A stretch of 64,000 nt of DNA from Fluviicola sp. XM-24bin1 (lineage in GTDB: Bacteria > Bacteroidota > Bacteroidia > Flavobacteriales_D > Crocinitomicaceae), in NCBI GenBank assembly GCA_003149635.1, contig QCWI01000003.1, forward strand, positions 186,001 through 250,000, given 5' to 3'. The position numbers were made by a program, and so were the translations under genes. The notes below the pieces were generated by a model that did not search any database, had not been told where the DNA came from, and worked only from the letters and a program-made list of their open reading frames with translations. Positions 20,193 through 56,130 of this stretch are shown in pieces (positions within the stretch are counted from its first letter, which is position 1; the number at the start of each line of letters is the position of its first letter).

Positions 20193-20226
20193 TTGTAAAA
20201 ATCTACCCGGGTTTCTATTACCTTTA
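20193..20226 (+). promoter_or_regulatory. YceI promoter containing the ATCTACCCGGGT element
   Basis: TTG (20193-20195), a 23-nt spacer and TACCTTTA (20219-20226) form the promoter. ATCTACCCGGGT (20201-20212) lies inside the spacer; its core ACCCGGGT is a perfect 8-bp palindrome. The same 12-mer, in the same orientation relative to transcription, lies in the promoter of the pirin-YceI unit at 37505-37516. Confidence 0.6.
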
Positions 20227-20250: not shown

Positions 20251-20760
20251 TTGAAAAAGATTATTGCTGCTGCGTTGTTCATGCTTCCAATGATGGGGAT
20301 GACGCAAGATTTACAAATAAACACAGACAAAGCTACGGTTACCTTCAACTTCGTGGCAGAAAACGTAGAAGGAACCGTGAGTGGTATTGACGCAACCATG
20401 TCGTTGAACCTTTCCGACTTGGGAAGCTCTGTCATTAAAGGAACAGCCGATGTTTCTACACTCTCAACAGGCACGAAAATGCGCGATAAGCATTTGAAAT
20501 CGAAGGAGTTTTTCCATGCTGAGCAGTATCCTAAAATGACATTTACTGGATCCTCTGTGGAGCAAAAAGGCGATCAGTACTTTGCGCACGGAACGCTTAC
20601 CATTAAAGGAATTACAAAAGATGTTTCTTTCTTGATGGTGATGAAAGACGGCATGTTGACTATGACTGCAACCATTAATGCAGCGGATTTTGAAGTATCA
20701 CCAAAGAAGTGGGAAAAAAGTCAAGTGGACGTTACGGTAAAAGTGCCGTTTAGCAGCTAA
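20251..20760 (+). CDS. Exported YceI family lipid-binding protein
   Basis: This 169-residue protein uses a TTG start, chosen because it alone gives the signal peptide (MKKIIAAALFMLPMMGMTQ). YceI proteins are periplasmic lipocalin-like beta barrels that bind polyisoprenoid-type lipids. Family features seen are TVTFNFVAENVEGTVSGI, the KMRDKHLKSKEFFHAEQYPKMTF block, TLTIKGITKDV and a C-terminal strand VDVTVKVPF. It differs from the cytoplasmic-type YceI at 36039, yet shares its promoter element, suggesting joint control. Confidence 0.9.
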   Translation: MKKIIAAALFMLPMMGMTQDLQINTDKATVTFNFVAENVEGTVSGIDATMSLNLSDLGSSVIKGTADVSTLSTGTKMRDKHLKSKEFFHAEQYPKMTFTGSSVEQKGDQYFAHGTLTIKGITKDVSFLMVMKDGMLTMTATINAADFEVSPKKWEKSQVDVTVKVPFSS

Positions 20761-28293: not shown

Positions 28294-28857
28294 TTATTTT
28301 TCTCTCTTCACCCGATTCAACTTACACGGCATCTCGAAAAACTCCAATTCTTTATCCACGTGCATATCGTTTTTCTCGGTCACGCGTTGCGATGCGACAT
28401 TGTTTATGTGAACGAATGAAACCACACTTTCCACTCTGGAATTCGCAAAAGCCCAATCACGGAAGTAACGAGCTAGTTCCGTCGCGTAACCAAATCCTCG
28501 GGCTTCCGGAAGTAGAGAATATGCGACTTCCCATTCGCCATAAGCTTCCGGCTCTTCGCGGTAGATAATTCCTCCCAAACCGAGAAATAATCCCGTTTCT
28601 TTTTCGGTGACGGCAAGCTGTCCAAACATACCATTTTTCCTGCGATTTATCGACTTTGTGATCCAAGCTTTAGCACGCTCGGGATTGCTTAGACCTTTGA
28701 ATGGGCCAGAGAGCATTCCCACATACGCCAAGGCTTCCTCATCTTTAAAAAATGGAATCCAGCGGTCGATATCAGCTTCTTCCAAATTGCGGAAGATCAA
28801 CCGTTCACTTTCATGTGTTCGGTAATAACGTTCTAATTCTTCTTTGTTTGGTTTCAT
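28294..28857 (-). CDS. GNAT acetyltransferase (RimJ/RimL-like)
   Basis: This 187-residue cytoplasmic enzyme would transfer acetyl from acetyl-CoA to an amine. It shows the SERLIFRNLEEADID start, the GEWEVAYSLLPEARGFGYATE acetyl-CoA binding segment and HINNVASQRVTEK near the end, as in the RimJ/RimL group. The substrate is unknown. It overlaps the upstream Lrp gene by ATGA, so the two form one unit. Confidence 0.85.
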   Translation of the reverse strand: MKPNKEELERYYRTHESERLIFRNLEEADIDRWIPFFKDEEALAYVGMLSGPFKGLSNPERAKAWITKSINRRKNGMFGQLAVTEKETGLFLGLGGIIYREEPEAYGEWEVAYSLLPEARGFGYATELARYFRDWAFANSRVESVVSFVHINNVASQRVTEKNDMHVDKELEFFEMPCKLNRVKREK

Positions 28858-29285
28858 CGTATTTCATTCATTACAAACGAGCTGCGCACGTTGACAATGC
28901 TCGGAATCGTGGTGAGTTTATGACGTAAAAACTGTTCGTAGGTTTCCATGTCTTGGATATCGATCATTAACGCGTAATCATGATCTCCGGCGATATGAAA
29001 GCAAGATACAACTTCGGGTAAGGCGATAACTTGTTTCTCGAAGCGCTGAAGCAATTCCAAGTTGTGTTCCTTCAGTGAAACATAGCAAAACACCTTCAGT
29101 CCCTTGCCGATTTTCTTCTTGTCCAACTCAACGGTGTACCGTCGGATAACGCCTTCGCGTTCCAGTTTTTTGATGCGCTCATAGGTCGGCGTTACGCTAA
29201 GCCCCACCTGTTGTGCAATCTCCTTTGTTCCCAGTTTTGCATTCTCTTCTAGTATTTCCAGAATCGCTCGGTCAATAGCATCCAT
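28854..29285 (-). CDS. Lrp/AsnC family regulator
   Basis: This 143-residue DNA-binding protein has an N-terminal HTH (AILEILEENAKLGTKEIAQQVGLS with VTPTYERIKKLE) and a C-terminal RAM effector-binding domain (GDHDYALMIDIQDMETYE). It is divergent from the PLP enzyme gene at 29428, a common arrangement in which Lrp-type proteins control the sulfur-amino-acid enzyme next door. A dyad lies at the PLP gene promoter (29406-29422). Confidence 0.92.
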   Translation of the reverse strand: MDAIDRAILEILEENAKLGTKEIAQQVGLSVTPTYERIKKLEREGVIRRYTVELDKKKIGKGLKVFCYVSLKEHNLELLQRFEKQVIALPEVVSCFHIAGDHDYALMIDIQDMETYEQFLRHKLTTIPSIVNVRSSFVMNEIR

Positions 29286-36038: not shown

Positions 36039-36566
36039 TCATTGTTGCTTCGCAAACTGAACGTCAGCTGAAAGCTTTACTTTGTCTGAAACCACTACAT
36101 TTCCAGCTTCTGTAACGGCGCTCCAAGTCAAACCGAAGTCCTTGCGATTGATTTCTCCAGAGATTTCGAATCCAACTTTTGTTTGTCCGTAAGGATCTAC
36201 CGCTACACCGCTCATGTCAGCATCCAAGGTAACTTCTTTGGTTACATCACGAATGGTAAGATTTCCCGTGATAGAATCTCCATTGAAAGAAGTCGACTCG
36301 AAAGTCATTTTTGGATAATCCGCTGCATTAAAGAAATCATCCGACTTCAGGTGATTGTCGCGATCTTCGTTGTTCGTGCTAATCGATACGATGTCTGCTG
36401 AGAACGAGAAGGTTGCATCCTGAAGATTCTCTTCAGCCGATTCCAAAGTGGCATTGAAATCCTTAAACGATCCGCGAACTGTCGAAATCATCATGTGTTT
36501 TACTTTGAATGAAATTTCAGAGTGTGTTGGGTCTACTGCCCATGCTGTTTTTGCTAATGTTTCCAT
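36039..36566 (-). CDS. YceI family protein without signal peptide
   Basis: This 175-residue lipocalin-like beta barrel has no signal peptide (METLAKTAWAVDPTHSE). Family blocks are ISFKVKHMMISTVRGSF, DRDNHLKSDDFFNAADYPKMTF and GEINRKDFGLTW. It binds a hydrophobic ligand, probably a polyisoprenoid, in the cytoplasm. It lies 26 nt after the pirin gene and shares its promoter, so the pair is one stress-type unit downstream of an AraC gene. Confidence 0.92.
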   Translation of the reverse strand: METLAKTAWAVDPTHSEISFKVKHMMISTVRGSFKDFNATLESAEENLQDATFSFSADIVSISTNNEDRDNHLKSDDFFNAADYPKMTFESTSFNGDSITGNLTIRDVTKEVTLDADMSGVAVDPYGQTKVGFEISGEINRKDFGLTWSAVTEAGNVVVSDKVKLSADVQFAKQQ

Positions 36567-36592: not shown

Positions 36593-37468
36593 TTAGATGC
36601 TCATTGGTACTTCCATGAGCAGTAGTTTTGATCCTGCTTTTCCGTTTACAGTGACTTTATCTGTATCCCAAACACCGTAGCCATCGCGCTTCGAAAGTTC
36701 TTGATCGTCAACGTTTAAATCTCCTTCCAAAACGAAGGCGTAAACTCCGTTTCCTTCCGCATGTAAATCGTATTGAAGTTCTTTGTCTTCCGTGAAATTT
36801 GCCATGCTGAACCATGCATCTTGATGAATCCAGACTCCTTGATCGTCTTCGTTAGGTGACAAGATTTGATAAATTTCGTTGTCCTGTACGAGATCGTTAA
36901 TTGCTACTTGATCGTAACGTGGCTCAACATGCTTCTTGTTTGGGAACACCCAGATTTGTAAGAATTGAACTTCTTCGTCCTCGTTCTTGTTGTATTCACT
37001 GTGGAATATTCCTGTTCCGGCACTCAAAACTTGAACATCACCTTCTTTAATTACGGCAACGTTACCCATGCTGTCTTTGTGCTCAAGGTCTCCCGCTAAC
37101 GGTATAGAGATAATCTCCATGTTATCGTGTGGGTGCGTTCCGAAGCCTTTTCCTCCGTCCACTTTATCGTCGTTCAATACGCGCAATGCACCAAAATGAA
37201 CGCGCTCTGGGTTGTAATAATTCGCAAAACTAAAAGTGTGATTGCTCTTTAACCATCCGTGATCTGCAAACCCTCGTGTGTCTGCTTTGTGTAATACCGT
37301 ATTCATAGTCTTTTTCTCTTTATTTGGTAAATGATTGAATCCAACTTGCGCTGCGAGTTTGTCGTAGTCGGATGTACGATTGGCCATCGCTTCTGAAATC
37401 AGAGCGGGGGCTGCTGCTCCTAACGCGCCTAGCGCAATTGACTTCTTTAAAAATTGTTTTCTGTCCAT
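36593..37468 (-). CDS. Pirin family protein with an N-terminal leader
   Basis: The pirin bicupin core begins at internal residue MNTVLHKADTRGFADHGW, with metal ligands in GTHPHDNMEIIS and the later HSEYNKNEDEEVQFLQIW. Upstream, the same frame continues to an ATG at 37468, giving MDRKQFLKKSIALGALGAAAPALISEAMA, a Tat-like leader (one Arg, not two). A second start at 37306 would give a normal cytoplasmic pirin. The 292-residue form would be exported; which is used is undecided. Pirins act as Fe-dependent quercetinase-like or redox-sensing proteins. Confidence 0.8.
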   Translation of the reverse strand: MDRKQFLKKSIALGALGAAAPALISEAMANRTSDYDKLAAQVGFNHLPNKEKKTMNTVLHKADTRGFADHGWLKSNHTFSFANYYNPERVHFGALRVLNDDKVDGGKGFGTHPHDNMEIISIPLAGDLEHKDSMGNVAVIKEGDVQVLSAGTGIFHSEYNKNEDEEVQFLQIWVFPNKKHVEPRYDQVAINDLVQDNEIYQILSPNEDDQGVWIHQDAWFSMANFTEDKELQYDLHAEGNGVYAFVLEGDLNVDDQELSKRDGYGVWDTDKVTVNGKAGSKLLLMEVPMSI

Positions 37469-37502
37469 AACCTGAAGGTTTATACTACAAATGTGCAAAT
37501 AC

Positions 37503-37516
37503 CTACCCGGGTAGAT
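37503..37516 (-). promoter_or_regulatory. ATCTACCCGGGT element of the pirin-YceI promoter
   Basis: CTACCCGGGTAG (37503-37514) is a perfect 12-bp palindrome. On the minus strand it reads ATCTACCCGGGT (37516-37505), identical to 20201-20212. A TTG lies 7-10 nt upstream on the minus strand and GGTATTTG follows, so the element is inside the promoter spacer. Confidence 0.6.
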
Positions 37517-37588
37517 AACACAAAAAACCGTGCAGGTCTTATGAAAATCCGACATTGGGTGAGAAAACTCCTGTTTTAGGGGAAAACT

Positions 37589-38458
37589 TTAGTTCTTGGG
37601 TTGGAAATTTGACGGACTGGAGCCCGTTTGCTTTTTAAAGAAGGCGCTAAAATTCGCCGGCTCTGAAAATCCGAGGAGGTATCCGATTTCCTTACTTGAC
37701 ATGTCCGAAAAGTAGAGCAAGCGCTTCGCCTCCACGACAATTTTACTTTGGATGTGCTCTTTTGCCGTTTTTCCCGTTTGCGCTTTTACAACGCGATTGA
37801 GGTGATCGGTGGAGATGTTTAGATTTTCCGCGTAGTCTTGAACTCCGTGCCAATCTTGGTAATTGGATTCAATGAGCTCTTTGAAATTTCGTATCAGAGA
37901 ACTCTTTCCATTTTCGGATTGTAAAAAGAGATCATTGGGAAGTGTGCAGGCTTGGTGGCACTCGATTAGGATGAGTTTGAGTAATGCACCGAGCGCTTCG
38001 CTTGAGAATGTTTTCGGGTTGTTCTGAATGGTGAACATATCTGAGCCATACGAACAAATCTTCTGCATGCTTTCATCGGATAATTCTACTGGCGGGGCAT
38101 AGCCAAAGTCGTGGAAGAGGTTCAAGTCGTGAATGAAATGCTCCGAGATATTATTGCGTAATAAGAAGGATTGTGAAAACAAAACAGCGAATCCCTTTGG
38201 CGGAATTTCATCTACCACCTGATGCACCTGTCCGGGAGCAACAAAGAACACTTGTTTTTCTCCGAAGGGATATTCGTTGAAATCGATGAGGTGCTTGCCT
38301 TGAGACTTTTCAACAAGGAGGACGGTGTAGAAATCATGACGGTGCGGCTCATCGGGTTGACCTTGACTTTTTTCGTACGCCGTGATCAATTCATCTATGC
38401 GAATTTCCAAAGAAACAGGATCTCCATTCACTTTATCGTAGTTTTTCACCGTATCCAT
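37589..38458 (-). CDS. AraC-family transcription regulator
   Basis: This 289-residue protein has a cupin-like N-terminal sensing domain (PHRHDFYTVLLVEKSQG, FFVAPGQVHQV) and a C-terminal pair of HTH motifs (about 190-285: LNISTDHLNRVVKAQTGKT and SSKEIGYLLGFSEPANFSAFFKKQTGSSP). It is 120 nt upstream of the pirin-YceI unit in the same direction and is a candidate regulator of it, though AraC sites are usually direct repeats, not the palindrome seen there. Confidence 0.9.
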   Translation of the reverse strand: MDTVKNYDKVNGDPVSLEIRIDELITAYEKSQGQPDEPHRHDFYTVLLVEKSQGKHLIDFNEYPFGEKQVFFVAPGQVHQVVDEIPPKGFAVLFSQSFLLRNNISEHFIHDLNLFHDFGYAPPVELSDESMQKICSYGSDMFTIQNNPKTFSSEALGALLKLILIECHQACTLPNDLFLQSENGKSSLIRNFKELIESNYQDWHGVQDYAENLNISTDHLNRVVKAQTGKTAKEHIQSKIVVEAKRLLYFSDMSSKEIGYLLGFSEPANFSAFFKKQTGSSPSNFQPKN

Positions 38459-53019: not shown

Positions 53020-54060
53020 CTACTTTTTGACCGTGGTTGTATTGAACGGATTGGATCCGGGATAGTCTTTCTGAAATACAAATCTTCCAGTTAATTCAAT
53101 CAAATCAAGAATCACGTAGTTCTTATCGGGCTTTGCTGTAGAAGCATAATTCACCTTGTATTCCGTTCTGTCAACTTGTGTACTAAAATCAAGAATTACG
53201 GTTGAATCTGTATCGATGACTGTGGCCGTCCAGACTTCCTAATTGCACTTGCCGCGCATACATAATTGTCCTTCAATTTTCCATTCATTGTTTTCCATCA
53301 ATGTCATGGATTCGGCTTTGAACGTTGCTCCTGGATACTTCGATACGTGGAAGAAATCTTTGCTCTTCAAGTGTTCAATGAGCGCTGGAATTTCGTGAGA
53401 CATACTGTCCATGTTGATGCTTACGTTGAGATCCGAGAGAATGCCATCGTTGTATGCAATTTTACCGTTGAATTCGTTCAAGGTGCCGGTTAAAGCGTAG
53501 TCGCCATCACCCTTTCCAGTCCACTTAATATTGGAGTCATCAGCAAGCATGGGCATCACCTGAGTTCCGTCTTCTAAAGTTCCTGCAGTGTACAAAATAT
53601 CGTATCCCATTAAAGTATCTCCTTGAGGATTCACCGCTTTCACATACCAGAAATTCCAGCCTGATCGCGTCCATGGTTCCACACGCCAATTTTTCTCATA
53701 AACGATAGAATCACCCGGGGCTAATTCAAGTGATTTGGTGTCGAATATGTCCATGGTTTGCTCTTCATTGAATGCCGCGCGTTTCCACCAACTTCCATAG
53801 TACAATAAATAGGCGCCCGTTTCTACCACTCGAATTGATTGTTCCGCTTTGATTGTTGTGGAGTGTTTCCAAGCGACCTTTTCTCCTTTCTCAATGTATT
53901 CAGGAAAATTGGGGTTCGGGGTGCTGAAGATGGTGAGTTCGTTCGGTAAGCCTGCCAACTCTGCCGGGAGCGGAATGGCTTCAACTTCTTCCTGCTGTGC
54001 AAGAACGGTTCCTGAGCCGCCCGAGATAAGTAACAAAAGGGCAAAAATTTTGTTTCGCAA
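53020..54060 (-). pseudogene. Exported YceI-like protein split by an in-frame TAG
   Basis: The start at 54060 gives a signal peptide (MRNKIFALLLLISGGSGTVLAQ). After an extra N-terminal domain, a YceI-type end is reached: SHEIPALIEHLKSKDFFHVSKYPGATF and EGQLCMRGKCN, then TAG at 53241-53239. The same frame goes on as EVWTATVIDTDSTV, TQVDRTEYKVNYAS and KKDYPGSNPF-like residues to a TAG at 53022-53020, matching the end of a YceI domain. As sequenced it would lack the last two strands, about 72 codons. Read-through, mutation or base error are the options. Confidence 0.7.
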
Positions 54061-55698: not shown

Positions 55699-56085
55699 TC
55701 AATCCAATCGTGCCCGAATCGTTTCAATCAACCCATCGCGATCTTCATGTGCGCGCTTGATGAAGTAATCCGAAACCGCTAAATCACCCTGATACTTATT
55801 CGACCAAACGATTAAATCAACAAGTAGGGGGATGAGATCCTTTCCTTTCTCGGTAAGTGTATATTCTTTCTTAGTTCGAAGTTTTTCGTACACCCTCCAT
55901 TCAATGATGCCGATTTTTTCCAGCTTTTTAAGGCGGTCGGAGAGAATGTTTGTGGCAATCCCTTCTTTGGAACTTTGGAAGTCTTTGTAGAATTTTTTGC
56001 CTTGCACCATATCTCGGATAATTAGAAACGTCCATTTATCACCAAAGAAATCGAGGGCATAGCTAACTGGGCAGTCTGATCTCAT
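55699..56085 (-). CDS. HxlR-type winged-helix regulator
   Basis: This 128-residue protein has C5 in MRSDCPVSYAL, then the family core GDKWTFLIIRDMVQGKKFYKDF, the recognition part GIATNILSDRLKKLEKIGII and the wing KKEYTLTEKGKDL. HxlR proteins bind DNA as dimers and often sense electrophiles through the N-terminal cysteine. An ACTTG-N7-CAAGT dyad lies 29 nt upstream and is likely its own operator. Control of the adjacent beta-lactamase is possible but the sites there differ. Confidence 0.9.
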   Translation of the reverse strand: MRSDCPVSYALDFFGDKWTFLIIRDMVQGKKFYKDFQSSKEGIATNILSDRLKKLEKIGIIEWRVYEKLRTKKEYTLTEKGKDLIPLLVDLIVWSNKYQGDLAVSDYFIKRAHEDRDGLIETIRARLD

Positions 56086-56103: not shown

Positions 56104-56130
56104 ACTTGCAATTACTTGTTATATGCAAGT
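56104..56130 (-). promoter_or_regulatory. Overlapping dyads upstream of the HxlR gene
   Basis: ACTTGCA (56104-56110) and TGCAAGT (56124-56130) are perfect inverted arms. ACTTG (56114-56118) and CAAGT (56126-56130), 7 nt apart, share the right half. Three half-sites of one motif right upstream of the gene are typical of autoregulation. Confidence 0.6.

Follow-up and report, generated by a model that had tools for sequence, protein, structure and literature searches.

A palindromic element in a pirin-YceI promoter of Fluviicola: probable operator of an autoregulated MarR-family repressor

In this study, we asked what reads a perfect 12-bp palindrome, CTACCCGGGTAG (37503-37514), that lies in the promoter spacer of a pirin-YceI unit of Fluviicola sp. 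XM-24bin1. Positions are those of the window, the whole 64,000-nt stretch of DNA that was analysed. A sequence-only reading had pointed to this palindrome, and its perfection is confirmed and its operator-like character supported. The unit is read from the minus strand and starts with a gene for a pirin family protein (36593-37468; Pfam Pirin and Pirin_C_2) with an N-terminal Tat-like signal, followed by one for a cytosolic YceI-domain protein (36039-36566). Its promoter comprises, in minus-strand order, a probable -33 TTG element (37523-37521), seven nucleotides, the palindromic operator core TACCCGGGTA (37513-37504), two nucleotides and TATTTGCA (37501-37494); the core is an intact member of the class TACCnnGGTA. 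Within the probable -7 region (37488-37501) the box may be TATTTGCA, 2 nt from the operator, or CACATTTG (37495-37488), 8 nt from it, as in the G018 and G025 orthologs, and either makes a poor -7 box. The site overlaps an open reading frame that runs upstream of the pirin start, hence the label 'coding' that the script gave it. A gene for an AraC-family regulator (37589-38458, minus strand) lies upstream of pirin, some 75 nt from the palindrome and in the same reading direction as the unit. Our findings support a model where the palindrome is probably the operator of an autoregulated MarR-family repressor, encoded outside the window (G000:C11:9978-10421), that would repress pirin-YceI.

The first line of evidence is conservation. 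Pirin and exported-YceI orthologs were gathered from 60 relatives and their promoters read. TACCnnGGTA, with a variable centre, stands upstream of pirin in 11 of the 14 genomes of the genus whose pirin promoter could be read: as TACCCGGGTA in this genome, TACCTGGGTA in G018 and G032, TACCATGGTA in G025, G010, and G002, TACCTAGGTA in G028, G022, G008, and G013, and TACCGTGGTA in G027. Given a background of 45 such palindromes in 3.63 Mb, or about 0.0025 per 200-nt promoter, the recurrence of the element is significant and chance negligible (about 1e-24 with this genome left out, an order of magnitude, as related species are not independent). Many of the genus genomes are incomplete assemblies, and relatedness makes all such p-values indicative only. 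In G018 and G025, which have the closest orthologs, the AraC gene is missing and the pirin gene has no Tat part; their pirin promoters are therefore not mere copies of the one here, and both keep TACCnnGGTA, unlike the promoters of exported YceI in the same two genomes. The ortholog comparison proposed in the sequence-only reading therefore came out in favour of the pirin site and against the exported-YceI one. In scans of the whole genome, made by pattern, ACCCGGGT occurs 14 times, about half of these within coding sequence. TACCnnGGTA, not the 12-mer, is conserved. The exact 12-mer was dropped as a conserved unit, a scan of 99 genomes being uninformative (CTACCCGGGTAG in three, including this one, the other two in apparently coding sequence).

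The second line of evidence is a regulator that carries the element in its own promoter. A scan of 60 genomes for TACCnnGGTA-N4-13-TAnnTTTG, together with the genes downstream, retrieved a MarR-family gene of this kind; the ortholog of this genome, on contig C11, has TACCATGGTA 14 nt before its ATG and is followed by an OsmC gene. Among 80 family orthologs (from Fluviicola, Taishania, Lishizhenia, and many Crocinitomicaceae assemblies), 66 have TACCnnGGTA at most 70 nt from the start, placed exactly 14 nt before the start codon in 59, while the 620 kb of these loci hold 69 such palindromes in total. Aligned, the promoters read TTG-N7-TACCnnGGTA-N2-TAnnTTTG-N4-ATG, which puts the operator inside the 19-nt spacer of a standard flavobacterial sigma-A promoter, between its TTG and its -7 box, of consensus TAnnTTTG (PMC9723704; the paper makes no mention of MarR, YceI or pirin). 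In the window pirin promoter, TTG-N7-core-N2-TA would fit this spacing, though with a poor -7 box. For marR, transcription would begin at the ATG or close to it, and the transcript is probably leaderless, with the ATG 4 nt past the -7 TAnnTTTG in most orthologs (L225-L304); leaderless transcripts are unusual in flavobacteria (5.5%; PMC9723704). Presence of gene and sites also coincides: promoter-type sites occur in 23 of 23 genus genomes with the MarR gene versus 4 of 11 without it (Fisher p = 6e-5), and of these four, three are less than 90% complete and the other, G019, 93%. The C11 protein matches PF01047 with 46.8 bits (cut-off 24.6), and its AlphaFold model (pLDDT 85.8) displays a normal winged-helix MarR fold, with wing and flanking dimerisation helices, whose best PDB fold matches are MarR-family proteins. 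At the wing, Cys94 is the single widely conserved cysteine (74 of 81 sequences). Taken together, the conservation before pirin and a MarR gene with the element in its own promoter make it very probable that pirin-YceI is repressed by an autoregulated MarR. The preference voiced earlier for a MarR-type protein encoded elsewhere over the neighbouring AraC protein is thus supported. Two further observations concern the spread of the family. A MarR 65% identical to the C11 protein, with the same operator, is also present in CP034120.1 (L239), whose title bears the gammaproteobacterial name Glaciecola amylolytica; either a mistaken title or gene transfer is the probable reason. Elsewhere in the order, in other families (L072, L201, L204; G080, G077, G062), promoters of pirin or of MarR homologs bear a short dyad of a different type, ATGTAnGTACAT, close to the -7 box, which looks like a change of operator along with the regulator.

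The genes found by the scan outline what such a repressor may control. Among 58 genes downstream of promoter-type sites in relatives are 29 for YceI domains, seven for MFS transporters, five for pirins, four for FMN reductases, three for MarR itself, two each for uroporphyrinogen-III synthases and cyclase-family enzymes, and one for a disulphide isomerase-family protein. In this genome, the promoter-type members are marR-osmC (C11), a YceI lipoprotein gene divergent from a cyclase-family gene (C2:63759), an NADPH-dependent FMN reductase gene (C5:172413), a gene for a membrane protein with a YceI domain (C6:77277), a second pirin gene divergent from an exonuclease-III-like gene (C8:164313), and the window pirin-YceI unit. 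MarR seems to govern a conserved group of genes for YceI proteins, pirins, flavin reductases, and efflux. The site with its placement and conservation, the autoregulation signature of MarR, and this gene content are shown by the DNA sequence. As for mechanism, we infer physical binding, and repression rather than activation: bound as a dimer to TACCnnGGTA, with the -33 TTG on one side and the -7 TAnnTTTG box on the other, MarR would block RNA polymerase at the pirin-YceI promoter until a quinone, electrophile, or oxidant, acting as a ligand or through thiols, frees it from DNA. The signal is the weakest step of this proposal. Release would free YceI proteins, pirins, FMN reductase, and OsmC, a set suggestive of redox/quinone or envelope stress.

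The known operators of MhqR, a MarR-type quinone-sensing repressor, are longer than the element described here and of other sequence. MhqR of Staphylococcus aureus and Bacillus subtilis (PMC6798810, PMC12893000) is likewise an autoregulated MarR-type repressor of quinone/redox detoxification genes, and it matches the C11 protein by fold (9qdr, 9smz) and by sequence (9qdr); yet identity in the fold alignment is about 21-22%, and its targets are mhqED rather than the YceI, pirin, FMN reductase, and MFS genes predicted here. The closest solved relative by sequence is a MarR of Planctomyces limnophilus (PDB 3u2r; E 2e-17, about 33% identity in the fold alignment), for which we found a structure only, with no operator or regulon. 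Our search of open-licence PMC papers for MarR with YceI, pirin, Bacteroidetes, or the operator sequence returned no earlier description of such a system.

Several findings speak against MarR as the reader of the window palindrome, among them the differences from the promoters of the closest orthologs, the sites in four genomes without the MarR gene, and the lack of enrichment of TACCnnGGTA in this genome. The palindrome, moreover, has a CG centre, which is seen in none of the 66 MarR-promoter sites and in none of the sites of the 60-genome scan; elsewhere the centre varies and is no firm mark of the regulon. The other MarR-class sites of G000, G018, and G025 have an AT centre, the pirin sites excepted. 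Exact TACCCGGGTA, centre included, is kept in these three genomes at four orthologous intergenic places (G000:C8:176135, C2:108115, C12:131152, and C13:45060; L012, L003, L015, L017), ahead of an RND efflux (HlyD) operon, a 6-pyruvoyl-tetrahydropterin synthase (PTPS)/FolE operon, a TonB-receptor gene, and an adhesin-like gene. The pattern hints at another regulator, whose operator would resemble that of MarR. The window pirin site could itself belong to this CG-centred class and answer to that other regulator together with the four promoters, and perhaps weakly with the one of exported YceI, since RND and exported-YceI promoters have ACCCGGGT-N6-TACCTTTA in common; we regard this as improbable, while giving it more weight than any other rival. 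In G018 and G025 the sites of the pirin orthologs are TACCTGGGTA and TACCATGGTA, both of the MarR-class type; none of the CG-centred sites has a regulator gene next to it; and in more remote members of the genus the RND and PTPS promoters are without such sites. It is because same-species pirin orthologs carry MarR-class centres that we weigh MarR above a CG-class regulator. A wider and tentative proposal, which we think possible but not likely, is that Crocinitomicaceae possess an undescribed MarR stress regulon of YceI and pirin genes plus a second regulator for RND efflux and pterin synthesis, whose operator is akin to the first but set apart by its fixed centre (TACCCGGGTA), the window pirin promoter having drifted so as to be readable by both. 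Beside TACCCGGGTA in the PTPS/FolE (L003, C2:108115) and TonB (L015, C12:131152) promoters we also observed GTTTAAC / GTTAAAC repeats, which resemble tandem operators and are kept in the PTPS promoters of G018 and G025. We take them to be possible operators of a CarH/LitR-like light regulator.

The palindrome has a partial double in the window. On the plus strand, ATCTACCCGGGT (20201-20212) is identical over 12 bases, and in the same orientation, to the minus-strand form of the pirin site, as had been noticed from the sequence; the copy, ATCTACCCGGGTTT (20201-20214), stands in the promoter of an exported YceI-family protein (20251-20760, plus strand), whose gene has a TTG start and is kept in G018 and G025. 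With both promoters belonging to YceI-linked genes, it was natural to propose that one regulator reads the two sites (pirin at 37504, exported YceI at 20203), a view compatible with the MarR explanation. We now find it rather unlikely, slightly more so than a CG-class reader. In the exported-YceI site, TACCCGGGTT, one core base is broken, and it is not an intact TACCnnGGTA. Its ortholog is altered in G018 (TGCCCGGGTT) and missing in G025, despite 77-79% identity between the proteins, so that the site fails the test of ortholog conservation; no such site was found before more distant exported-YceI orthologs among the relatives whose promoters were read, and pirin sites in general do not keep the CCCGGG centre that the two window sites share. 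The copy at 20201 is probably not a site of the regulator of the pirin palindrome and would then lie outside its regulon. A third YceI-like ORF of the window (53239-54060, minus strand), exported and larger, contains LKSKDFFHVSKYPGATF; within the window, there is no TACCnnGGTA near it.

Could both window sites be mere chance, and the palindrome functionless? In the window, ACCCGGGT is present just twice, at the two sites; still, shuffled windows are expected to hold 0.53 on average and 10 of 100 reach at least two, so the window alone gives no significance. TACCnnGGTA, moreover, is not enriched genome-wide here (45 versus 73 for a control). Against this stand the element in 11 of 14 pirin promoters and a placement of the site like that in MarR promoters, and we consider chance very unlikely. 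Less likely still is control of pirin-YceI by the neighbouring AraC-family protein through the palindrome: its gene is close and adjacency of AraC and pirin recurs in G062 and G075, but the pirins there lack TACCnnGGTA, the searched flanks of site-bearing pirins in other species contain no AraC homolog, and AraC proteins usually read direct repeats.

Several other candidates were discarded as readers. The remaining clear MarR genes of this genome (C9:159897, C4:235218), as well as weaker matches, have promoters without the palindrome, and it was not found for an Lrp-type gene of the window (28854-29285) with a weak MarR-domain match. A spacer activator of MerR/CarH type, considered from the placement in the spacer and the GTTTAAC repeats, was dropped, given that the MarR gene carries the site in its own promoter. 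An HxlR-family gene (55699-56085, minus strand) was set aside for carrying a different dyad of its own, ACTTGCA-N13-TGCAAGT, just upstream (56104-56130), which probably reflects autoregulation.

YceI and pirin proteins are widespread, yet what they do in the cell is not well established. A MarR repressor dedicated to them, which regulates itself and whose predicted targets are half YceI, along with pirins, FMN reductase, and OsmC, would place these proteins in a single response, and the predicted regulon gives a direct route to finding the inducer. The motif is, in addition, precise enough for target prediction across a family of mostly uncultured Bacteroidota.
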